Origin: Sporodiniella umbellata
Taxonomy: Eukaryota; Mucoromycota; Mucoromycetes; Mucorales; Rhizopodaceae
Reading direction: 5' to 3'
NCBI GenBank assembly: GCA_025677835.1
Contig: JAIXMR010000072.1
Span: forward strand, 62,001-126,000
Length of the DNA: 64,000 nucleotides
Shown: positions 39,890 to 57,575 of the stretch, in pieces
How the letters are laid out: each line of letters opens with the position of its first letter
Numbering within the stretch: the first letter of the stretch is position 1
Translations under genes and position numbers: made by a program
The notes under the pieces: model-generated
The model's database searches: none
What the model saw: the letters and a program-made list of their open reading frames with translations, nothing else
Told to the model about the DNA's origin: nothing

Positions 39890-40832
39890 ATGCACTTTTC
39901 TTCTTTTGTCTCTTTGGCCTTGGTTGCCACTGCCGCTATGGCCTCACCTATCCTCAAGGCTGTGAGTATAAATACGTGTTGTATAAAAGTGTTTTTATTG
40001 ACTTTTTCTCTCTTTCTGTAGCGTGCTCCTGAAGATAATGCCACTGCTAACAACAAGAACGCAGACGGTGTTTTTGTTAAATGTAACCGACCTGGTGTCT
40101 TTGCCATGACGTTCGATGATGGACCCTATCAATACTCTTGGGATTTAGCCAAGTCTTTGAACCAACAAAACATTAAGTCCACATTCTTCATTAATGGCAA
40201 TAACTGGGTGTAAGTAGTAGTAGTAGTAGCAGTATGAAACAAGAGACTTATTTTTTTTTTTATAGTAACGTAGAAACCGACAAAGTAACCACCAGCGATG
40301 GAGAAAAGACTTATATGGAAGTAATCAAGCATTACTACGATATGGGTCATGAAGTAGCCAGTCACACCTATCAACACAAAGAACTTCAAGGCTTAAGCGA
40401 TGAACAAATCGAATATCAAATGAACACTGTTTCTGATATTATCTTCAAGGCTATTGACAAGAGGTATAAAAAAAGGAACAAAAAACCTGAACAGCAGTGA
40501 CTAATAAGCATGATAGACCTGCCTTGATGCGTCCCCCTACTGGTTCCTATGATGCGAATGCATTGAATGTATTGAAAAGACTTGGATACAGCGTCGTCAA
40601 CTGGGATTTGGATACCAACGATTGGCGTGCTCATGACTTTGCTCAAGAAAAGTCTGCCTACACTGAAATGGATAAAGATACCCCTCAAACCCTTGGTCAT
40701 ATCACTTTAGAACATGAAGTCTATGACCAAACTGTGAACGAATTGGTACCTTGGGCTATCGAATATCTCAAATCAAAGGGTTATGAATTGGTTACTGCCT
40801 CCAGCTGTATCGGTGTTGAACCCTATCAATAA
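39890..40832 (+). CDS. Secreted chitin deacetylase (CE4/NodB), 257 aa
   Basis: Converts N-acetylglucosamine units of chitin to glucosamine (chitosan) at the cell wall. Four exons (39890-39961, 40022-40209, 40266-40463 and 40517-40832) sum to 774 nt. An N-terminal signal peptide (MHFSSFVSLALVATAAMA) is followed directly by the NodB domain. All five CE4 motifs are present: TFDDGP (residues 54-59), SHTYQH with metal ligands H120 and H124, RPPTG, DTNDW and LEHEV. There is no C-terminal anchor, so it is probably secreted. The third junction was placed at 40517 because it gives DKRPALMRPPTG, matching the paralogue next door (KKRPAIMRPPQG). The intron after NGNNWV is shared in position with that paralogue. 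Confidence 0.93.
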
Positions 40833-41383: not shown

Positions 41384-42194
41384 ATGTATTCATTATTAGT
41401 GTTAGCTACAGTAGCCATCAGTCAAGTGCTCTCGATGCCTTTGTCAAGCTGGACCAACAATAAAAGATCGGAAGGAGCAGTAGCAATATCATGTAATCGG
41501 CCTGGTGTGTTTGCAATGACATTTGATGATGGGCCTTATCAATATTCTTACCAATTAGCAAGTCTTTTAAAAGAAAAAGGTGTTCGAGCCACTTTTTTTC
41601 TTACTGGAAATAATTGGGTGTAAGTTTGATGATAACAAAAAAGAAAAGAAAAACAGTATTCTTAATCGTAAAAAAAAAAAAAAAAGGAACGTAGAATCTG
41701 ATAGTGTAGAAACAGAAGACGGGCAAAAAAGCTACTTGGATGTAATTCGACACGCTTATGCAATGGGTCACGAGATTGCAAGTCATACTTATTCTCATAA
41801 AGTCCTGAGAGGAGCGTCAGAAGAGACAATTAGAGAAGAGATGAACAAAGAATCCGACATTATCTATGAGGCGATCAAAAAACGGCCCGCGATTATGCGT
41901 CCCCCTCAAGGGGATATAGGATCAGAAGAGGTCGATATACTCAATGGGTTGGGTTATACTGTCGTGAACTGGGACCTAAATACAAACGATTGGCAATCGG
42001 AAGACGCAAAAGTAGGCATGCAAGCCTATGAAGAAACACTCAAAGATCAATCCATTGGCCATATCGCTTTAGAGCACGAAGTCTATGATTATACAGTGAA
42101 AGATTTGGTGCCTTGGGCGATAGATTATGTAAAAGGCCTTGGTTTAGAGTTTGTAACCGTATCTGATTGTTTGGGTGTTGAGGCTTATCAATAA
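41384..42194 (+). CDS. Secreted chitin deacetylase paralogue, 247 aa
   Basis: A tandem copy lying about 550 bp downstream of the first deacetylase. Two exons (41384-41619 and 41687-42194) sum to 744 nt. It has a signal peptide (MYSLLVLATVAISQVLSM) and the NodB motifs TFDDGP, SHTYSH, RPPQG, NTNDW and LEHEV. In motif 4 the first Asp is replaced by Asn (NTNDW rather than DTNDW), but the two His and the catalytic Asp pair are kept, so activity is likely. It shares the intron at NNWV|NV with its neighbour but lacks the other two, so the copies have diverged in intron content. The intervening 40833-41383 holds only 3' UTR, a likely promoter and T-rich runs. The retained intron ends after a 16-nt A-tract. 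Confidence 0.92.
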
Positions 42195-45030: not shown

Positions 45031-45982
45031 ATGTCTAAAGTTCCCTCTGGTAAATTAAAGGAATCTTGTATACAAGTTTGAATTAACCCAGGCTGTGTTT
45101 TTCTAGTTTTAAACCCTACTGAAGAAGATATTCAACTTTTGTTGTCTGCTCAAGCCCATATTGGTGCCAAAAACTTGAACACGCGCATGTTGCCTTACGT
45201 GTTCAAGCGTCGTGCCGATGGTAATATTCAACATTAGCCAGAGAGAAAACAAGAGACTAATGCACATCCAACCTTTAGGTGTTCACTTGATCAACCTTGG
45301 CAAGACCTGGGAAAAGCTCATCTTGGCTGCGCGTGTTATTGCTGCTGTTGAGAACCCTGCGGATATTGTGGTTATCTCTGCCCGTCCTTATGGTCATCGC
45401 GCTGCTTTGAAGTTTGCCCGCTACTTGGGTGCTGAAGCTATTGTGGGCCGTTTCACCCCCGGTACCTTCACCAATTACATCACCCGCTCTTTCCGCGAGC
45501 CTCGTTTGGTGATCTGTACCGACCCTCGTTCTGATTTCCAAGCTGTATTGGAAGCCTCGTACGTGAACATCCCTGTCATCTCTCTTGCTGACACCGATGC
45601 TTCTCTTCAATACATTGATGTTGCTATTCCTACCAACAACAAGGGTAAGCATGCCATCGGTCTTATCTACTGGCTTTTGGCCCGTGCTGTTCTGCGTCTC
45701 CGTGGCACACTTGACTACTCCACCCCTTGGGATGTGATGGTCGACATGTTCTTCTACCGCGACCCTGAGGAGGTTGAAAAGACCGATGCTGAGCTCAACA
45801 CCGATGAAGTCCCTGGCGAATGGGGAGCTACCACCGAAGAACAAGACTGGACCATCGAAGCTGAAGGTCCTGCTGGCTTCGCTGCCAACGCTGCCGATTG
45901 GTCTGCTGAAGGTGCTTCCAACGATGTCGGTAACTGGGCTGACGATGTCGCTGCTCCTCCCGCTACTTCTGGTTGGGACTAA
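45031..45982 (+). CDS. RPS0: 40S ribosomal protein uS2 (S0/RPSA), 278 aa
   Basis: This is a structural protein of the small cytosolic ribosomal subunit. Three exons (45031-45049, 45107-45220 and 45279-45982) sum to 837 nt. The first exon is tiny (MSKVPS), typical of ribosomal genes. Family hallmarks are all present: [74 protein letters not shown] and [20 protein letters not shown]. The acidic tail has repeated Trp (W..W, ending TSGWD), as in other eukaryotes. Codon usage is visibly more GC-rich at third positions than in neighbouring genes, as expected for a highly expressed gene. A TATA-like TTATATAA lies just upstream of the ATG. Confidence 0.97.
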
Positions 45983-46664: not shown

Positions 46665-47464
46665 TTAAAAGTAAACGGCTAAAATAGCCACCACCAGCAA
46701 GCTCAGGATAGGTACTTGGGTGCTCGTAGCTTGACTTTCGATTGCCTTGGTAGGCATGATAATACCCCCTCTGTTGGGTTTTTCATCTACTCTTAATACG
46801 CTTTCAATAGCTTTGGTAGGTTCGTGGCCTTTAGGCAATTGCTGAGTAGGCTTGGCTACAGAAGAGATGGGATCGTGTACATAGATTGGACTTTCAGCCA
46901 CTATTGAAACGGATGAATACAGTTTTTTTTTTTTTTTTTTTTTTTTTTATAGGAAACACTTACTCATCTTGTAAGGGTTTGAATCAGCCAAACAATTATC
47001 CAAGCGCACCAAACTAAAACCAGCATCTGTAATAGCCTTCACAATATGACGGACGGCGTTCACAGAGCTTGACTGGGGTACATCGTAATGAACTGCGATG
47101 AAAGAAGCGCCCTTTTCCCTGGCCAAAGCTTGTTGATAAAATTCTTGAATTGAACCAGGACCGGTAGCTTTCTTTTGAATGTAATCTTCACTATCCAGAT
47201 TATAGCCTACGGTCACAAATCCCAGATTAGCCAAGATGCGGTCAATACGAGGATCTTTGGTAGCTGAATGAAGACGGACATATTTGGGTGCTACGCCAAT
47301 CACCTTTTGGATCCTACGTGCGTTTTCAATCATATCAGCCTCTAACTGTTCATCCGACATATCTTCTGGCTTATCGTTCTTGGCTCGATAGGTCATGCCG
47401 ATCAAATGGCCTGCGCTATGAAGGTTTTGAAGGATCGTTTCATGTTTAGCGCTTGTTAACCTAC

Positions 47465-47495
<31 letters not shown>

Positions 47496-48483
47496 AAGGG
47501 GGAGGAAAGGTATGAGGTTCAAGATACAATATGCATACAAAAAAAAAAATCTCCTGAAAGTTTACCATGTAGAGTTTACAAAGAAATTGGCTTTAGCGTC
47601 AAATTCGCTTAATTGCTGTGCAATCTTGACAGAGGCTTCTGTAGGTCCTTCACTCTAAGAATAAACGTGTTAAGTCTGCCCAGAAGGAGTGTGTGTATGT
47701 AAGGTCTTACATAGGTCAGAGCAATTTCACTCTTGCCTTTACAAGAAATAATAGGTGTCGTAGATGATTTTCCAGTCACGCCAGTGACTTCAGGTGTCCA
47801 TGAAGTCTTTGTTTCTGGTACGAAAGGAGTTTTGTAGGCTGAAATAATAATAATAATAAAAAAAAAAAAAAAACAAGGGATTAGAAAGAATTGGGCCAGA
47901 GTTTTTTTTTTATACCTTTGGTTGGTTTCATGGAGCCTTCTTTCTCTGTAAATCCGAGCACTGGAGGTTTAGGTGGAGCAGATCCTACTTCTGCAGGCTC
48001 TTCAGCCACAGGTTCTTCGGCTACAGGCACTACAGGATCAGCCGATTCATCTGGCACAGGCGGTTGCTCTACCACAGGCTCAACCGCCTCTTCAGGAGCC
48101 TCTTCGGATTCAGCGACAGGCTCTGGTGATTCAGGTTGTTCTTCCACCTCAAATTCGTTTTCTGATGTATCTTCCGTCTCAGAGGGATCTTCTACTAGAC
48201 CAAACTCTTCTTCTGGTTGATCAAAAGGGCTTTCGTAATCCTCTTCAGAATCATAATCGTTATAGACTGAATCCTCCGTCGCGGCAGCATCGTCGTTCCA
48301 TACAGTCACCGTGACACTAGTAGTCACACGGGTCACATCGTCGCCATTCCAGTCATCTTGGTTGGCAACAAGACTACCAAAAAGGGGGAACAGTGCAACA
48401 GCAGCTAAAGACACGTTAAAAGTGTATATTCAAAACACATTTTAGTTTAAAGGTGGCTTACTTAATAAACCAATTGTCCTCAT
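46665..48483 (-). CDS. Secreted NodB-fold protein lacking CE4 catalytic residues, probably GPI-anchored, 486 aa
   Basis: Six exons (48483-48462, 48404-47916, 47838-47711, 47654-47566, 47460-46964 and 46900-46665) sum to 1,461 nt. It has a signal peptide (MRTIGLLTAVALFPLFGS), then an acidic Pro/Glu/Val-rich linker to about residue 170, then a NodB-like domain, then a spacer and a C-terminal hydrophobic tail (VPILSLLVVAILAVYF) typical of GPI attachment. The CE4 motifs are altered. TFDDGP is TYSEGP (residues 212-217), HTxxH is MTYRAK (265-270) so both metal His are gone, RPPxG is RLHSAT, and DTxDW is DSEDY. A His at about 367 (AVHYD) survives. It is therefore probably a non-catalytic, wall-associated chitin-binding or regulatory relative of chitin deacetylase. 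Introns contain 27-32-nt homopolymer tracts. Confidence 0.85.
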
Positions 48484-48977: not shown

Positions 48978-49029
48978 TAAAAAATAAAAAAATAAAATAA
49001 AAAAAAAAAAAAGAAAGCAGAGGGTGGAT
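48484..49029. promoter_or_regulatory. Divergent promoter region between NodB-like and P4-ATPase genes
   Basis: This contains a GATA/TATA microsatellite (about 48497-48535), a short ATT repeat and a long A-rich tract just before the flippase start (48955-49014, mostly A). Poly(dA:dT) of this kind commonly disfavours nucleosomes in fungi; that role here is inference. No gene is seen; shadow frames on both strands are Phe/Lys-rich. Confidence 0.45.
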
Positions 49030-52000
49030 ATGTGGTGGCTCAAAAAGAAGGAAAGGAAAAAGAGCGAAAGCACGCCGAGGGACAAATACTATGAAGAGGC
49101 TCGACACCGTACCTCCAGAACGCTATCAACGCTTTCGAGCAGTTATAAGATGCAGCGTATCGAGTCCACCGTCAAATTGAGGCGGATTCAGAGCGGGGGT
49201 CGTCGAGTGTTTGTGAATATGCCTTTGCCTGAGTATTACGAACGGCCCCTGTACGCATCCAACAAGATCAGAACCTCAAAGTATACCGTTGTCACTTTTG
49301 TCCCCAAAAACCTATTTGAGCAGTTTCGTCGACCTGCCAATCTTTATTTCCTCGCTATGGCTGTGATTCAGCTTCTGCCTACCTTTGGTGTCAAATCGCC
49401 CGCTTTGACCCTGTTGCCTATCTGTGCCGTGGTTTTTATCACAGCCCTCAAAGACGGTATCGAAGATCTTCAGCGCCACAAGGTCGATGCCAAATACAAC
49501 CAGAACGTCACCCATACCTTGATCGGACATCACAACACCAACGATCCTCAGCCTCTGCAACCGTCTGATACCGACGGTACCTTTCAGTCCTCACTTGCCA
49601 TGAATGTGCGTGTGGGTGACTTTATCCTCTTGCGTAACGGGGACAGTGTGCCTGCAGATGCTTTGTTGCTCTCCAGCTCAGATAAAGAAGGGCTCTGTTT
49701 TGTCGAAACAAAAGATCTCGATGGCGAGACCAATCTGAAGCCTCGTGCTAGTATGCCTCATTTTCGTCACCTTCAGTCCGGCCAAGACTGTATCGACGCC
49801 TGCCACCTCTACGTCGAAGCCGAAGCGCCCTCACCCGACCTTTACAAATTTGACGGGACACTCGTCACATTCGATAAACATGAAGATAGCTTTGTTGAAA
49901 AGAACAAGGCACCTATCGATATCAACAACATTCTCTTGAGAGGCCATGTCATCCGAAACACAAAATGGGCCATTGCCGTCATTCTCTTCACCGGCACAGA
50001 CACAAAGATCATTCTCAACTCGGGTGAGACCCCCAGTAAACGCAGTCAGATTGATACAGAAATGAACAAAGAAGTAAAGCCCTCTTTTGTTATCACAAAC
50101 GCTCATCCATTCATCCTGTAGATCTTTGTCGCTTTTGCCGTTCTTTTCTTGCTCTGTTTGGTATGTGCCATCATGGCAGGTGTAGTACGTGCAAGAGACT
50201 TGACCAACCCTGGAAGTGATCTTTTTACAGCTCAATCTGGAACACCAGGTTACGTAGGCTTTCTCAATTTCTTTTCAAGTCTGATTATTTTTCAAAATAT
50301 CATTCCCATTTCACTTTATGTTTCGATTGAATTTGTTAAAACATTCCAGGTAAATCTATACTCTACATCCTCCTTTTTATACATGTACTCATACTGTTCG
50401 AAAGGCTTTCTTTATTTGGAGCGATCTTGATATGTGGGATGAAGAAGCAAAGACATCTTGCGTGCCAAAGACAGTAAACAGGATTCGATAGGTTTTATAA
50501 GGTGTGTTTACCTTTCTTTGTGTATCTATAGTGGACATTGTCAGACGATTTAGGTCAAGTCGAATATATTTTTTCAGACAAGACAGGCACCTTGACTCGA
50601 AATATCATGGAATTTAGAGAGTGCACCATTGGCGGGAAACGGTACGGTGACAATGGATTTGCACCTGAATCGGATGGTGCTAAAGGCGCACGACTTCGAC
50701 GTCAAGAGGATAATGTACGTCCTGATCGAGACACGGTATTTAAAGAGTACCAACGTGCGGTAGAAGAGTTATATGAGCCTAGATACGCCTCAATGGATCC
50801 CGAGCGACTGTCGTTTGCAGACCCGCAACTCTTCAAAGATCTTCAGGCTGAAGACGATCAAGCAAAGCGCATTCGCGAATTCATGATGCTTCTCACCCTG
50901 TGTCACACTGTAGTCATCGAACGCATTGATAAAGAAGGCCATGTGTTTGAAGAAGAAGACGAGATAGAGGATGAAGACGAGCATCAGCCAGTGATCAGTG
51001 CCAGTGAGGAAACGGTGGTACATAAAGAGAAAAAGTTGAACAAAATGGGTGCTGCTTTGATGTCTAGCGGCAGCCGACTTCTTCATGGCCTCAAGCGAAA
51101 AAAGAACCGTCGAGGGGAAGAGTTTGAATCCATTGCGGACCCAGACGATGCCAACGACCGTGTGGATCACACCGTACAGGACCAGATCGAGTACAAGGCC
51201 GAATCTCCAGATGAAGCCGCACTGGTGAACGCAGCCAAAGATGCAGGCTTTGCCTTTGTCAAGCGCCGAGGCAATCTCTTGACGGTAGATGTTCTTGGAG
51301 AAGAAAAGAGCTTCAAGGTGCTAGACATACTAGAGTTCAATTCAGATCGAAAACGAATGAGCGTGATTGTCGAACGGCCTGCGCCTTGGAACGATCTCGT
51401 GCTCTACTGTAAAGGTGCAGACAATGTTATTCTCGAACGTCTTGCCCCCGATACTGGCCATCTCTTACACAGAACTCATGAGCACCTCGACGCTTTCTCT
51501 GAAGACGGTCTACGCACCCTGATGCTCACCTATCGTATCCTTGAACGCAGCGAATACGACCATTGGAAAAAGGAACTTGACAGTGCTGCAACCGCTACCG
51601 AACAGCGCGCTGAAAAAACCGCAAGTATACAAGAAAAAATCGAAGTCGACCTCCAACTCTTGGGCGCGACAGGAATCGAAGACAAACTTCAGGAAGGCGT
51701 TCCCCAGTGTATTGAGGATCTTAGAAAGGCTGGGATCAAAGTCTGGGTCTTGACAGGCGATAAACTCGAGACAGCCATCAATATTGGTTATGCAAGCAAC
51801 CTGCTCAGTAGCGAGATGCAGCTCTGGACCGTACGAGGTCATGAACGACCTGAGGATGTGATCAAGAACTTTGATGAGATTTCAGAGCAACTCAGAAACG
51901 ATCCTTCCGATAAAACCAACGGAGAAAGCGCGCTTATTATTGAAGGCACTTCGCTTGTTCATGTTTTTCAGTCGGATGAGATACAAGAAAAGCTGTTGGC

Positions 52001-53006
52001 GATTGCCATGCAGTGCAAGAGTGTTATCTGCTGTCGCGTGAGTCCACTTCAGAAAGCGCAGGTGGTTGAAGTCGTTCGAAAGTCGCACGATGTAGTCACA
52101 CTGGCGATTGGCGATGGCGCCAACGATGTAAGCATGATCCAGGTAGCAAACGTTGGGGTTGGCATCACAGGTCAGGAAGGGGTTCAGGCTGCGATGGCTG
52201 CAGACTATGCTATCTCTCAATTCCGTTTCCTTCACAAACTCTTGCTCGTTCAGGGTCATTGGAGTTATGCGCGTATTTCGGAAATGATTCTCAACTTTTT
52301 TTTCAAAAACGTCTTTTGGGTGTTTCCCTCGCTCTGGTATCAAATCTATAGTGGCTGGTCAGGTAACTTCTTTTACGACTACTCCTTTCTTCAGCTCTAC
52401 AACATCATCTTTACTCTCGCCCCGATCGTCGTTCTCGGTGCTACAGACCAAGACATCACCTCTGCTTATCTTCAACGCCTGCCACAGGTGTATACTATCG
52501 GTATCGAACGTAAACTTTACACGCGCCCCAAGTTCTGGCTTTATTTTATTGATGGCATCTATCAATCTGTCATTGTCTTTTACGCCTTCTACTTTCTGTA
52601 CCGTACTAACCCTAACGCGAACGGAGAACCCGAATCCAACCTACAGCTTTCCACCTCGGTTGCGGTCACAGCGATCGTATTGGCCAATTTGGTACCGAGC
52701 TTCAATACGTCTTACTGGTGCTGGGTTCAGTTCCTGTGTGTCGGTATTGAGCTTCTTGTGACGTTTCTTTGGGTGGTTATCTATGGCGCGTTCCCTACCA
52801 ATAATATCTATGGTATGGCCATGATGGTCTTTGGCTCTTGGTCTTTCTGGCTGACTTTCTTTATCGCCATCGTTCTGGCTCTTTTGCCACGGTACATCAC
52901 AACCTTTGTCTACCAATGGTGGTTTCCCAACATGGTGGCTAAAGGTCGACATTTTGAATATTACGAGAGAAAGAAGAACAGGAAGAGCTGTTTTGGTTTT
53001 CTTTAG
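49030..53006 (+). CDS. P4-ATPase aminophospholipid flippase (Dnf-type), 1,271 aa
   Basis: Moves phospholipids from the outer to the inner leaflet of the plasma membrane or endosomes. Four exons (49030-50073, 50122-50349, 50405-50473 and 50532-53006) sum to 3,816 nt. Family motifs in order: PANLYFL in TM1, KDLDGETNLK (actuator DGET), SDKTGTLTRN with phospho-acceptor Asp near residue 463, KGADNVI in the nucleotide domain, TGDKLETAINIGY, GDGANDVSMIQ, and a C-terminal membrane domain ending YYERKKNRKSCFGFL. The block WTLSDDLGQVEYIFSDKTGT is close to yeast Dnf1/2 rather than Drs2 or Neo1, but subfamily needs a tree. A cytosolic Cdc50 partner is expected by family. It converges with the glycogen phosphorylase gene, 125 bp away. 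Confidence 0.95.
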
Positions 53007-53131: not shown

Positions 53132-55786
53132 TTAGTTGAGATGTACAGGCTTAAGATCCCAAATCTTATCAGCATATTCTCTTGTAGCGCGATCAGCCGA
53201 AAAGAAACCCATACCGGCCGTACAGAGAATGGATTTCTTGGCCCACTCCTTTCTGTTTCTGTAGACATGCTCGACTTGGTCATGTGCATCAAGGTATTTC
53301 TCAAAGTCGGCAGAGATCAAGTAATAATCACCACCATAGGTCAAGGTATTGATGAGAGGAGCAAAGACAGAGGCCGTTTGAGGACCACCAAACTCACCTG
53401 CCTGAATGGCCTGAAGAACGACCTGAAGGTTAGGATCGATCAAGACGCCATGATACTTTTGTTTGTGACGGATGTCAGCCGTTTGGTCAGCGAGGGTGCC
53501 AAACATAAAGATGTTGTCTTGGCCAATCTCATCGCGGATTTCGATATTAGCGCCATCGACGGTACCTAGGATAAGGCCTCCGTTGAGAACGAATTTCATG
53601 TTGGAAGTGCCCGAGGCCTCGGTACCAGCGGTTGAGATGTGTTGAGAGATGTCAGAGGCAGGGACGATGATTTCGGCCAACGAGACGTTATAGTCTGGAA
53701 TATAGACCACCTTGAGCATATCGTGAATCGAGTGGTCGTTGTTGACCACCTCAGCTACGGTGTTGATCAACTTGATGACTGTTTTGGCAGTGTAATAACC
53801 AGGTGCGGACTTGCCACCAAAGATGACAACCCTTGGAATCAGCTCACGTCGTTCTTCGTCCGAGAGCAACTTGATATTCTTGTAACGATAGATAACGCTG
53901 AGGATGTTCATGAACTGACGCTTGTATTCATGAATACGCTTGACCTGGATATCAAACAAAGCCTCAGGATTCAGGGTGATATTGAGGTGGGTCTGAACCC
54001 ATTCTGCCAAACGGGCCTTGTTCTTTGTCTTGACTTGCATCCATTCGTTTTGAAAGTCAGGATCCTCTGCATAGGCCGCGAGCCCTTGCAGCTTGGAAAG
54101 ATGGGTTACCCAATCCTCGGTACCCAGCTTGCGGGTGATCAGGTCGCGTAAGGCAGGGTTAGCCTGGTAAAGCCATCGACGCGGGGTGATACCGTTGGTG
54201 ATGTTGATAAACTTCTCAGGACCATAGAAACGTACAAAGTCAGGGAAAAGCTCGGACTTGACCAGGTCTGAGTGCAATGCGGCCACACCGTTCACCTTGT
54301 GAGAGCCTACGACAGCCAAGTAGGCCATACGTACCTGCTGGGGATTTGATTCTTCAATAATGGACACCTTGTTCAACAAGTCGCGGTCGCCCATGTGCTC
54401 CCTTTCGACTTTCTGCAAAAAGAAAAGGTTGATATCGTAAACAATCTGCATATGACGCGGCAAGATATGCTCCATCATTGGCACAGACCATCGCTCCAGG
54501 GCTTCAGGCAAGACTGTGTGGTTGGTAAAAGCATACACGCGAGTGACGATATCCCAAGCGTCGTCCCAGTCAAGCCCTTCGACATCGACAAGGATACGCT
54601 GGAGTTCAGGAATGGCCAGCGTGGGGTGCGTATCGTTCAACTGGACAGCGACTTTTTCCGGGAAATCTTTCCAGGCTGAGTTCGTACGCTTGAAGCGGTG
54701 GATGATGTCCTGAAGTGAGGCGCTGACAAAGAAATATTCTTGTTTCAGGCGCAACTCTTTGCCGACGAGATGGTTGTCGTTAGGATAAAGGACAGAAGTC
54801 AGGTTTTCTGCATTCTTTTGTTCTGCTGTAGACTTTTCATAGTTGCCGTCATTAAACGAAGCAAAGTCAAAGGTATGGAGCGATTTGGAGGACCAGAGAC
54901 GGATATTACCACATCCTTTTGTGCCAAAACCGGGGATAGGCACGTCATAGGCCATGGCCTGTACCTTTTGAGTGCCTTCCCAAGACATGCGGGACTCGCC
55001 CTTGTCGTTCATCTTGGTGGCCACATAGCCATAGAATTGCACCTCATAAATCACCTCATTTCGCGGGAACTCCCAAGGATTGATGGCAGGGTCTAGCCAA
55101 TAGTCTGGCATCTCAGTCTGGTAGCCTTCCTTGTTAATCAACTGCTTAAAGATACCGTACTGATAGCGGAGACCGTAACCCCAGGTAGGGTATTCCAGCG
55201 TGGCCGTAGCGTCCATGTAGCAAGCAGCGAGACGACCCAAACCACCGTTACCCAAAGCAGCATCTCTCTCTTGTTCGATCAGATCCTCCAGGCTGAACCC
55301 AAGCTCCTTGATACTCTTCTTGTACACATCTTTCACCTCCAGACAGTGCAGCGCATTATCCAGCGCGCGGCCAATCAAGAACTCCATCGATAAATAGTAA
55401 CACCGCTTGGGATTTTTTTCTCGCATGATTTCTTCCGTCGCGTTCCAGTCCTCCAGAAGACGGTCACGCACCGTCAATGCCGTCGCCTTGTAGACAGCCC
55501 AAGCATCCAGGCTGTTGGGTCGACGGCAGAGCGTCTCCACCGTGTGATGGACAATGTTCTTCTTTACAGATTCCGTATCTTTTTCCTTGGGCGTAATATG
55601 CTTTTGCCATTCGTTCAGCGCTTCCGTGTTTAACTTTACATGCTTTGATTGATGGGAAGGCACGCTGGCAGTGGCCACTGTTTCTACCTTGCCATTTTGA
55701 TCGTCGTCTACATGAATCACCACATTCGTTAATCGACGTGTCAGTTTAGGCATAGAGAGTCGCCTTTCAGCAGTGGGTCGTGTCAT
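53132..55786 (-). CDS. GPH1: Glycogen phosphorylase, 884 aa
   Basis: Releases glucose-1-phosphate from glycogen in the cytosol, the first step of glycogen breakdown. It is an intronless frame. Start ATG 55786 (MTRPTAERRLSMPKL) is chosen over an in-frame extension that would translate a T-tract into Phe. Family marks: YYLSMEFLIGRALDNAL, DAALGNGGLGRLAACYMDAT, QLNDTHPTLAIPELQRILVD, NGITPRRWL, FGGKSAPGYYTAK and the PLP site EASGTSNMKFVLNGG. The N-terminal extension with RRLSMPKL resembles a PKA-type phosphorylation site, so control by cAMP signalling is plausible, as in yeast Gph1. Length matches fungal enzymes (about 880-900). Confidence 0.97.
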   Translation of the reverse strand: MTRPTAERRLSMPKLTRRLTNVVIHVDDDQNGKVETVATASVPSHQSKHVKLNTEALNEWQKHITPKEKDTESVKKNIVHHTVETLCRRPNSLDAWAVYKATALTVRDRLLEDWNATEEIMREKNPKRCYYLSMEFLIGRALDNALHCLEVKDVYKKSIKELGFSLEDLIEQERDAALGNGGLGRLAACYMDATATLEYPTWGYGLRYQYGIFKQLINKEGYQTEMPDYWLDPAINPWEFPRNEVIYEVQFYGYVATKMNDKGESRMSWEGTQKVQAMAYDVPIPGFGTKGCGNIRLWSSKSLHTFDFASFNDGNYEKSTAEQKNAENLTSVLYPNDNHLVGKELRLKQEYFFVSASLQDIIHRFKRTNSAWKDFPEKVAVQLNDTHPTLAIPELQRILVDVEGLDWDDAWDIVTRVYAFTNHTVLPEALERWSVPMMEHILPRHMQIVYDINLFFLQKVEREHMGDRDLLNKVSIIEESNPQQVRMAYLAVVGSHKVNGVAALHSDLVKSELFPDFVRFYGPEKFINITNGITPRRWLYQANPALRDLITRKLGTEDWVTHLSKLQGLAAYAEDPDFQNEWMQVKTKNKARLAEWVQTHLNITLNPEALFDIQVKRIHEYKRQFMNILSVIYRYKNIKLLSDEERRELIPRVVIFGGKSAPGYYTAKTVIKLINTVAEVVNNDHSIHDMLKVVYIPDYNVSLAEIIVPASDISQHISTAGTEASGTSNMKFVLNGGLILGTVDGANIEIRDEIGQDNIFMFGTLADQTADIRHKQKYHGVLIDPNLQVVLQAIQAGEFGGPQTASVFAPLINTLTYGGDYYLISADFEKYLDAHDQVEHVYRNRKEWAKKSILCTAGMGFFSADRATREYADKIWDLKPVHLN

Positions 55787-56118
55787 TGCTTTTAGATAAA
55801 AAGAAAAATAAAGTAAAAAAAAAAAAAAAAAAAAAACGCCTTGACTTTCCCCTTTTATTCCCATGAGAAAAATGGGCGGATATTTACTTTTTTTTTTTTT
55901 TTTTCAGTGATACGACAAGTACGTTTCTACGTCACTTTAAACAACTTTTTGTTTATCTATTTTAACGTTTTGAAAAAAAAAAAAAAAAAAAAAAAAAAAA
56001 AGCAGATAAAAACCAGTCTAGACTCCGTTGCTAATCCAAATGGCGAAAAGATGGGCTCCAGTAAAAATTTTAGAATTGCTTAGATCTATTTTTTTTTTTT
56101 TTTTTTTTTCTTTAGATC
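55787..56118. promoter_or_regulatory. Divergent promoter with poly(dA:dT) tracts
   Basis: This 332-bp gap between the oppositely transcribed glycogen phosphorylase and DBP8 genes holds four homopolymer tracts: about 19 A near 55815-55835, 15 T near 55889-55904, 28 A at 55974-56001 and 20 T near 56091-56110. Such tracts usually keep nucleosomes off fungal promoters. I see no clear TATA box or protein-binding site. Confidence 0.5.
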
Positions 56119-57575
56119 ATGTCAGACAATAAACGCCTTAGTAGAGTAGCTGCCTCCCGAGAAAAGACGCAAGTTAAAAAGCAACGTACGATCGCGCCTG
56201 AAGGAGTACGATTTGAAGATGTTGGAGTGGAGGAGTGGATGTCTGAAACTCTAAAGTCCATGTCGATTAGAGAGCCTACCGAGATCCAAAGAGCTTGCAT
56301 ACGGCCTATAATGCAAGGTAAGGATGTGATTGGTGGTGCCAAAACCGGTTCCGGTAAAACAGCCGCCTTTGCTATTCCTATTTTACAAAAGCTTTCACAA
56401 GACCCGTACGGTATTTTTGCGTTGGTGCTGACACCCACCCGAGAACTTGCCTATCAGATTGCGGAACAGTTCAGAGTGCTTGGAAAGGGAATCGGTGCTA
56501 AAGAATGTGTTGTTGTTGGTGGAATGGGTAAGAATAGCCAATTGATACAGCCACAGAGAACTAAGGTCTTGTCTAGATATGATGACACAAGCTTTGGAAC
56601 TTCAAAAACGACCCCATATTGTGATCGCTACACCTGGCAGACTTCGAGATCATATTCGTAGTAGTTCTGGCGCTGTCAACCTTAGCCGCTGTAAGTTTTT
56701 AGTGATGGACGAAGCGGATCGAATGCTCTCTTCTACTTTTGTTCCTGATCTAGAATTCATCTTGCCGCTGTTACCCAAAGAACGACAAACATTACTCTTC
56801 ACAGCCACAATGACTGAATCCATTCTAGCCCTAAAGGATGTAGAAGAAAATCCTGCAAAGAAACCGTTCGTACATGTGTGCGACATGTCGATCTCTACTG
56901 TGAACACGCTGGACCAGTACTATGTCTTTGTTCCTTCCCAAGTCAAATTCGTTTACTTGGCCTACCTGTTACGTACAGAGGACCTCAAAGATAAATCAGT
57001 CATCATCTTCTGCGGTAGATGCTCAACTGCAGAGCTGATCACCGTAATGCTCAAGGAACTAGGGATTCGATGTACTGCTCTACACTCAGAAATGTCACAA
57101 CAACAGCGTCTCAATTCCTTGGGGAAGTTTAGGGCAGAGGTAGTCAACATCCTGATCTCAACAGATGTCGGCAGTCGGTAAGTACTTTTTTTGTTGGCCA
57201 CTTTAGGATACTCATTGCCATTCTCATTCTTATTCGAAAAAGTGGTCTGGATATTCCTTCTGTTCAATGTGTCCTGAACTTGGACATCCCGCGCGATCCT
57301 ACAGATTACATTCATCGAGTGGGTCGTACGGCTCGTGCTGGTCGCGGAGGTAAAGCCCTCTCCATTGTTAGTGAAAAAGATATTCAATTGATACAGAATA
57401 TCGAAGAAAAGACCCGTAAGCTCGCTTGCTATTTTGTATCTATACTTCTCTAACCCATTCACTCTTAGATAAAACAATGGAAAAATACGATGTTCAAGAA
57501 AACGCTGTTTTGGATATTATGGGCGATGTCACCACAGCCAAACGAGTAGCCAGTTTAAAAATCAACAAGAAATAA
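56119..57575 (+). CDS. DBP8: DEAD-box RNA helicase Dbp8 (DDX49-type), 429 aa
   Basis: ATP-dependent RNA helicase of the small-subunit processome; acts in the nucleolus in 18S rRNA maturation. Four exons (56119-56527, 56577-57177, 57243-57415 and 57469-57575) sum to 1,290 nt. Motifs in order: Q motif PTEIQ, I GAKTGSGKT, Ia PTRELA, Ib ATPGRL, II DEAD, III TAT (usually SAT, but TAT is normal in this subgroup), IV IIFCGR, V STDVGSRGLD and VI HRVGRTARAGR. Length matches Dbp8 (about 430 aa) rather than the longer Rrp3/Dbp3 groups. The tail is short and basic (ASLKINKK). Confidence 0.93.

Follow-up and report, generated by a model that had tools for sequence, protein, structure and literature searches.

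A minus-strand gene of the Mucorales fungus Sporodiniella umbellata encodes a protein that has the predicted NodB fold of CE4 deacetylases and is without the CE4 catalytic set. It lies at positions 48483-46665 of a 64,000-nucleotide stretch of contig JAIXMR010000072.1 (positions 62,001 to 126,000 of the forward strand), referred to herein as the window. Homologues from two fungal phyla, Mucoromycota and Mortierellomycota, are without the same catalytic residues and carry nearly the same replacements. We put at roughly 55% the chance that the window protein represents, in Sporodiniella, an ancient family of CE4-derived pseudoenzymes of these phyla, which would be held by a glycosylphosphatidylinositol (GPI) anchor and would grip chitin at the wall without deacetylating it. 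A non-enzymatic job at the wall appears probable because the active site is without the parts of the reaction, and because its rebuilt version is common to relatives from two phyla.

State of the CE4 motifs

The window protein matched the PF01522 (NodB / Polysacc_deac_1) model with 50.3 bits, against a curated cut-off of 23.1. The NodB domain comprises residues 200-405 (46974..47752; this and all other features of the gene are on the minus strand) and is split by introns 3 and 4. The motifs of CE4 enzymes are given in the available text of PMC6415152 as TFDD (motif 1), H(S/T)xxH (motif 2), RxPY (motif 3), DxxD(W/Y) (motif 4) and I(V/I)LxHD (motif 5). Motif 1 reads TYSEGP in the window protein (47643..47716, split by intron 3), with TYSE for TFDD; the base Asp is replaced by Ser214 and the metal Asp by Glu215, leaving an acid at the metal-Asp place. 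The motif-2 region, GHLIGMTYRAKND (47373..47411), contains the loop GMTYRAKND with Tyr267-Arg268, and no His-x3-His appeared in any register obtained. Owing to a one-residue insertion near this motif, the first metal His faced Thr266, Tyr267 or nothing in three alignments and the second faced Lys270, Asn271 or position 269, with no His in the window protein at any of them. In motif 3 (PKYVRLHS, 47265..47288), Arg305 is kept, the Pro is His307 and the Tyr is missing. Motif 4 (NLDSEDY, 47181..47201) is intact by the published pattern, with D332-S-E-D335-Y336. In motif 5 (FIAVHYD, 47082..47102), AVHYD stands for VLSHD; the acid His is Tyr368, with His367 adjoining.

Catalytic or metal residues are therefore lost from motifs 1, 2 and 5, motif 3 is partly changed, and motif 4 is intact. 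With a predicted NodB fold from which the metal triad and catalytic residues are gone, the window protein is by sequence a putative CE4 pseudoenzyme, a NodB fold that has lost either or both. The CE4 reaction, as described in the available text of PMC6415152, cannot run as known in this protein, because it has no metal triad, base or acid. A preliminary description of the locus had read TYSEGP, MTYRAK and RLHSAT correctly and had recognized that the catalytic set was lost. Its broader claim that all key motifs are altered holds for motifs 1 and 2 and in part for motif 3, where Arg305 is kept. It fails for motif 4: the DSEDY that was called altered fits DxxD(W/Y), and the solved deacetylase ClCDA itself reads NLDTKDY. 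The change of the motif-5 His to Tyr368 was absent from that description.

A family without the catalytic set in two phyla

Three protein searches yielded 128 distinct proteins; adding the window protein and three controls brought the scored set to 132 sequences. After 18 fragments were left out, 111 domain-complete family rows remained, among which the window protein and P0001 (see below) are identical. One of the searches scored 7999 candidates, and the best 120 of its 185 matches were covered. The motif-1 Asp pair, the complete motif-2 His pair and the His of the motif-5 column each occurred in 0/111 rows. Orthologues with intact motifs, which the preliminary description had proposed to look for, were accordingly found in none of the 111 rows, within the best 120 of 185 matches.

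The replacements are nearly fixed. Glu215 was present in 110/111 rows (the exception being P0020), Tyr267 in all 111, Arg268 in 110 (exception, P0125), His307 in 110 (P0097 has Pro) and Tyr368 in 109, with Ser in P0097 and P0071. Position 214 is Ser or Asn in 109/111 and Gly in the other two (P0070 and P0071). Residues that the family has in common with CE4 motifs were also retained: Asn330, Asp332, Asp335 and Tyr336 of motif 4 in 111/111 each, Asp369 in 111/111, and Arg305 in 102/111, with Lys in the other nine. Trp243 was found in 109 rows, and Cys203 and Cys399 in all 111. Position 367 varies, being Gln in 85 rows, Gly in 17 and His in nine, the window protein included.

These counts bear on whether the protein could be a metal-dependent deacetylase after all, residual or altered, whose metal is bound at a new site. 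Glu215 is a possible metal ligand, alignment puts His307 in the pocket, motif 4 has stayed intact, and in the window protein His367 stands beside the motif-5 place. However, residue 307 is the sole nearly invariant His (110/111) among the altered motif positions, His367 is confined to 9/111 rows, and no His-x3-His is left in any register obtained. The inactive proteins tabulated in the available text of PMC5855634 are without these His, though BA0330 of Bacillus anthracis retains them. We regard a new metal site as very unlikely.

Organism names were attached to 104 of the 111 rows and represent 38 genera. With one species of each looked up, the family spans Mucorales, Umbelopsidales and Endogonales (Mucoromycota) and Mortierellales (Mortierellomycota). 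No member from outside these two phyla was seen among the named organisms in the best 120 of 185 matches, some rows being metagenomes. When P0001, P0024, P0107 and P0010 were compared with NCBIfam, the bacterial polysaccharide deacetylase models scored far under their cut-offs (at best 68.4 vs 237.4 bits). The public name "chitin deacetylase" is carried by 10 among the 120 matches listed (of 185), and counts of chitin deacetylases in Mucorales may partly comprise proteins unable to deacetylate. A stretch specific to the family (consensus ~FVxDxFSFGxxxYxxGQ) follows the NodB domain at about residues 228-243 of P0107 and at the same place in P0002, P0010 and P0038; the P0107 model has two short strands just past it, and the window protein retains only its start (YVHDPIS). 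The records of P0026 and P0028 resemble gene models onto which an unrelated N-terminal part has been fused.

A hint that a family member is expressed comes from Lichtheimia corymbifera, where two spectra from a mixed spot of a two-dimensional (2D) gel were assigned to CDH53462.1 (LC34, table 1), named "Hypothetical protein RO3G_06829 (Predicted peptidoglycan/xylan/chitin deacetylase)" (available text of PMC4973876). That source name is shared by the family members P0017 and P0045, between which it does not discriminate. The serum reactivity of that spot, which also contained other proteins, is not assignable to CDH53462.1 (PMC4973876, same portion).

Phylogeny and constraint

A quick maximum-likelihood tree was built from 55 domain rows: the window protein, 46 family rows hand-picked for spread from the 110 others, and eight ordinary CE4 proteins, namely ClCDA and AngCDA, whose structures are solved, and six from the Sporodiniella genome. 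The family was monophyletic apart from the ordinary CE4 proteins with a Shimodaira-Hasegawa-like approximate likelihood ratio test (SH-aLRT) support of 100, in a sample of 55 rows with only two outgroups from outside this genome and with long branches flagged by the program. The window gene fell among Mucorales and Umbelopsis rows that mostly have long linkers (support for the group, 99), and the Mortierellales rows formed one group (support, 100). Short-linker rows, the base of which is not resolved in the tree, likewise come from both Mucorales and Umbelopsis, and for that reason an early duplication within the family is suggested.

Conservation was computed on 46 rows, non-redundant at 85% identity. 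Over the changed CE4 positions 214, 215, 267, 271, 307 and 368 it averaged 0.862, compared with 0.676 for the whole domain, and 3.2% of 20,000 random sets scored as high; positions 215, 267, 307 and 368 were conserved at 96 to 100%. A five-position set gave 0.978 (9/20,000 random sets), with positions chosen post hoc, and is not used as evidence here. Among 50 columns conserved at >=95% in 44 other members, the window protein retains 42; none of the eight that it has changed (207, 218, 221, 249, 250, 257, 391 and 398) is a catalytic-motif residue. Its end branch is 0.41 long, compared to a median of 0.13, which suggests that evolution of the Sporodiniella copy is quicker than the family average, with the pocket kept.

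The long end branch and the eight changes at otherwise conserved columns are what could be expected of a chitin deacetylase decaying in Sporodiniella alone. Against such a local loss, which we find hardly credible, the same substitutions are present in homologues of two phyla that form one clade, and the frame is intact. Decay in one species only is rejected, since the substitutions recur over the 111 domain-complete rows. The view of the preliminary description, that this is maintained sequence and not decay, is supported.

Gene model and protein layout

Six exons join into a single open frame of 486 amino acids, and all five introns (56 to 105 bases) are GT-AG. An intact frame over six exons had been claimed before, with the strand unstated. 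Exon 1 (48462..48483) supplies the start codon and the first codons of a signal-like segment and is followed by a GT-AG intron at 48461-48405. Exon 2 (47916..48404) contains the remainder of the signal-like N-terminus and the bulk of the acidic linker, and exon 3 (47711..47838) the end of the linker, Cys203 and the Thr-Tyr of motif 1. Motif 1 continues with SEGP in exon 4 (47566..47654), which runs through Trp243. The altered motifs 2, 3 and 5, the intact motif 4 and Cys399 are in exon 5 (46964..47460), and exon 6 (46665..46900) encodes a stalk, the GPI-like hydrophobic tail and the stop codon (46667-46665).

By simple hydrophobicity rules, the N-terminus is signal-like and the C-terminal segment (46668..46724) is GPI-like, which suggests a secreted and GPI-anchored protein. 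The linker (residues 23-199) is acidic, with 28% Asp plus Glu and 5% Lys plus Arg. The public NCBI gene model, P0001, a hypothetical protein of Sporodiniella umbellata (Rhizopodaceae, Mucorales), is 100% identical in the NodB domain; it has 453 amino acids, reads the last exon (46900-46665) differently and is without the GPI-like tail. At its last exon junction no GT-AG pair could be placed by eye. We prefer our reading of the 3' end because similar tails occur in relatives such as P0002 and because a hydrophobic tail is present, by the same simple rule, in 96/111 family rows. Of the secreted layout given in the preliminary description, the acidic linker stands, and the tail is predicted here and absent from P0001. 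An exceptionally large number of chitin deacetylases is attributed to Mucorales; Rhizopus oryzae has 34 CE4 models, most of which are said to appear GPI-anchored (available text of PMC3032700).

Other CE4 genes of the genome

Two CE4 genes on the plus strand, at 39890-40832 and 41384-42194, each have the Asp pair of motif 1, the His pair of motif 2, a motif-4 DxxDW and the motif-5 His. They are the two intact deacetylases within 8 kb that had been pointed out previously, and they turn out not to be close paralogues of the window gene: these tandem neighbours are 60% identical mutually and 22% identical to the window domain. A recent tandem duplication from the neighbouring deacetylases is rejected on these values, 22% identity to each vs 60% between the two. 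The window gene and both neighbours have a phase-2 intron at places that differ by one codon (NST|W and NNW|V), which does not decide whether its origin is shared.

PF01522 gave 28 exon-level matches in this genome, and those outside the window's contig belong to 22 loci. Motif 2, as found by pattern and not from full gene models, was canonical in 21/22 loci and in both neighbours. In the remaining locus, L038 (G000:C157:103800-105200), an apparent intron splits motif 2 (HTW, then intron) and the second His was judged by eye; its motif 1 is SFDDGP. Motif 3 is variable among the CE4 genes of the genome, for example RPA for RPP in L007. By motif patterns, no other degenerate CE4 gene was recognized in the 22 loci and two neighbours, and the window gene is the only CE4 gene recognized without the motif-2 His in this genome. 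A second family member was not found in this genome by two single-sequence searches, which scored a limited candidate list.

With at least 24 other CE4 genes in the genome, partners would be plentiful for a pseudoenzyme regulator, that is, a dead domain that pairs or competes with active chitin deacetylases or with chitin synthases, thereby tuning the conversion of chitin to chitosan. Control by dead paralogues is a frequent theme among pseudoenzymes, and a groove that holds and does not cleave its substrate would compete for it. On the other hand, proximity says little about partnership here, because the window gene shares only 22% identity with each of the flanking CE4 genes. Such a regulator has a small but appreciable chance of being the right answer.

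Around the gene, judged by eye, are what we take to be genes for ribosomal protein S0/SA (45179-45982, plus strand), a P4-type ATPase (48988-53006, plus), glycogen phosphorylase (53132-55903, minus) and a DEAD-box helicase (56116-57453, plus).

Discussion

We favor the reading that the window protein is a GPI-held pseudoenzyme that grips chitin. The protein would be secreted, and a GPI anchor would hold it at the plasma membrane or wall, with the domain carried on an extended acidic stalk. The predicted NodB barrel is retained, but the zinc site, the catalytic base and the catalytic acid are gone, with a nearly fixed set, Glu215, Tyr267-Arg268, His307 and Tyr368, in their place. Motif 4 with Tyr336, an exposed aromatic, remains as one side of the substrate groove, as do Arg305 and Trp243, and Arg268 may replace the charge of the zinc. 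Most likely, chitin or its partly deacetylated form is gripped in the old groove with its acetyl groups left on; the outcome would be a membrane tied to the wall, or an ordering of the chitosan-rich wall. The groove side, Arg305, Trp243, the likely anchor and the acidic stalk together argue for a polymer that is held rather than cut.

Several points weigh against this reading. The strict conservation of polar pocket residues fits a new activity as well as binding. Of the six changed positions, 214 (72%) and 271 (54%) show no exceptional conservation. In 3/111 rows a His occupies column 271, where one register puts the second metal His, and the window protein and eight other rows carry His367 beside the motif-5 place. 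The NCBI model P0001 ends without a hydrophobic tail. The function of the window copy could be relaxed, given its long end branch. Finally, BA0330, the functional parallel, retains its zinc site.

The first of these points is also what speaks for a repurposed enzyme, in which a metal-free site made of Glu215, His307, Arg268 and Tyr267/Tyr368 would act on a different bond of a wall glycan. Yet chemistry is not demonstrated by conservation alone, Ser368 occurs in two rows and Pro307 in one, and the allantoinase PuuE retains the motif-4 and motif-5 catalytic residues, where here the motif-5 His is Tyr. We judge this alternative unlikely. Slightly less likely again is its specific form, in which a rebuilt, metal-independent NodB-fold site (Glu215, His307, Arg268, Tyr267 and Tyr368), its Arg268 taking the place of the zinc, had become fixed by the time Mucoromycota and Mortierellomycota diverged and acts on a glycan particular to the walls of these chitosan-rich fungi.

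The family would offer a clean and testable case of a deacetylase fold without its chemistry: the active site was apparently replaced once and then nearly fixed over two phyla, in fungi that have a chitosan-dependent wall. CE4 pseudoenzymes are already known, namely EcCDA, BA0150 and BA3943, according to the available portions of the literature. A fungal pseudo-CE4 clade this broad, whose replacement residues are nearly fixed, did not turn up in the open literature searched, most subscription papers being outside its scope.

Comparison with known systems

ClCDA of Colletotrichum lindemuthianum (CE4; PDB 2iw0) has the motif-1 Asp-Asp, the His-x3-His, the motif-3 Pro and the motif-5 His, all of which are missing from the window protein. 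In motif 4, this active enzyme is likewise Tyr-ended (NLDTKDY vs NLDSEDY). The inactive CE4 homologue ECU11_0510 / EcCDA of the microsporidian Encephalitozoon cuniculi (PDB 2vyo) is without the motif-3 Arg, whereas the window family keeps Arg or Lys; it is 20% identical in a structural alignment and is not among the rows of the tree made here. Among the bacterial CE4 pseudoenzymes of Bacillus anthracis, BA0150 (4m1b) has kept, in the available account, the catalytic Asp and His that are lost in the window protein, and BA3943 (7bkf) is not excepted from the motif-2 pattern. PuuE allantoinase (3cl6), which acts on another substrate with its motif-4 and motif-5 catalytic residues kept, is 15% identical in a structural alignment.

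BA0330 and BA0331 of B. anthracis are the best experimental parallel and the functional model adopted here. They are NodB lipoproteins for which peptidoglycan binding and no deacetylase activity were reported, and variants lacking the catalytic Asp complemented the phenotypes of their loss (available text of PMC4505593). They differ from the window protein in that Asp-His-His is kept, that zinc is seen in BA0330, and that BA0330 has an extra Fn3-like domain, as far as the same text goes. What the window protein would have in common with them is a membrane-anchored NodB fold with a non-enzymatic role at the wall.
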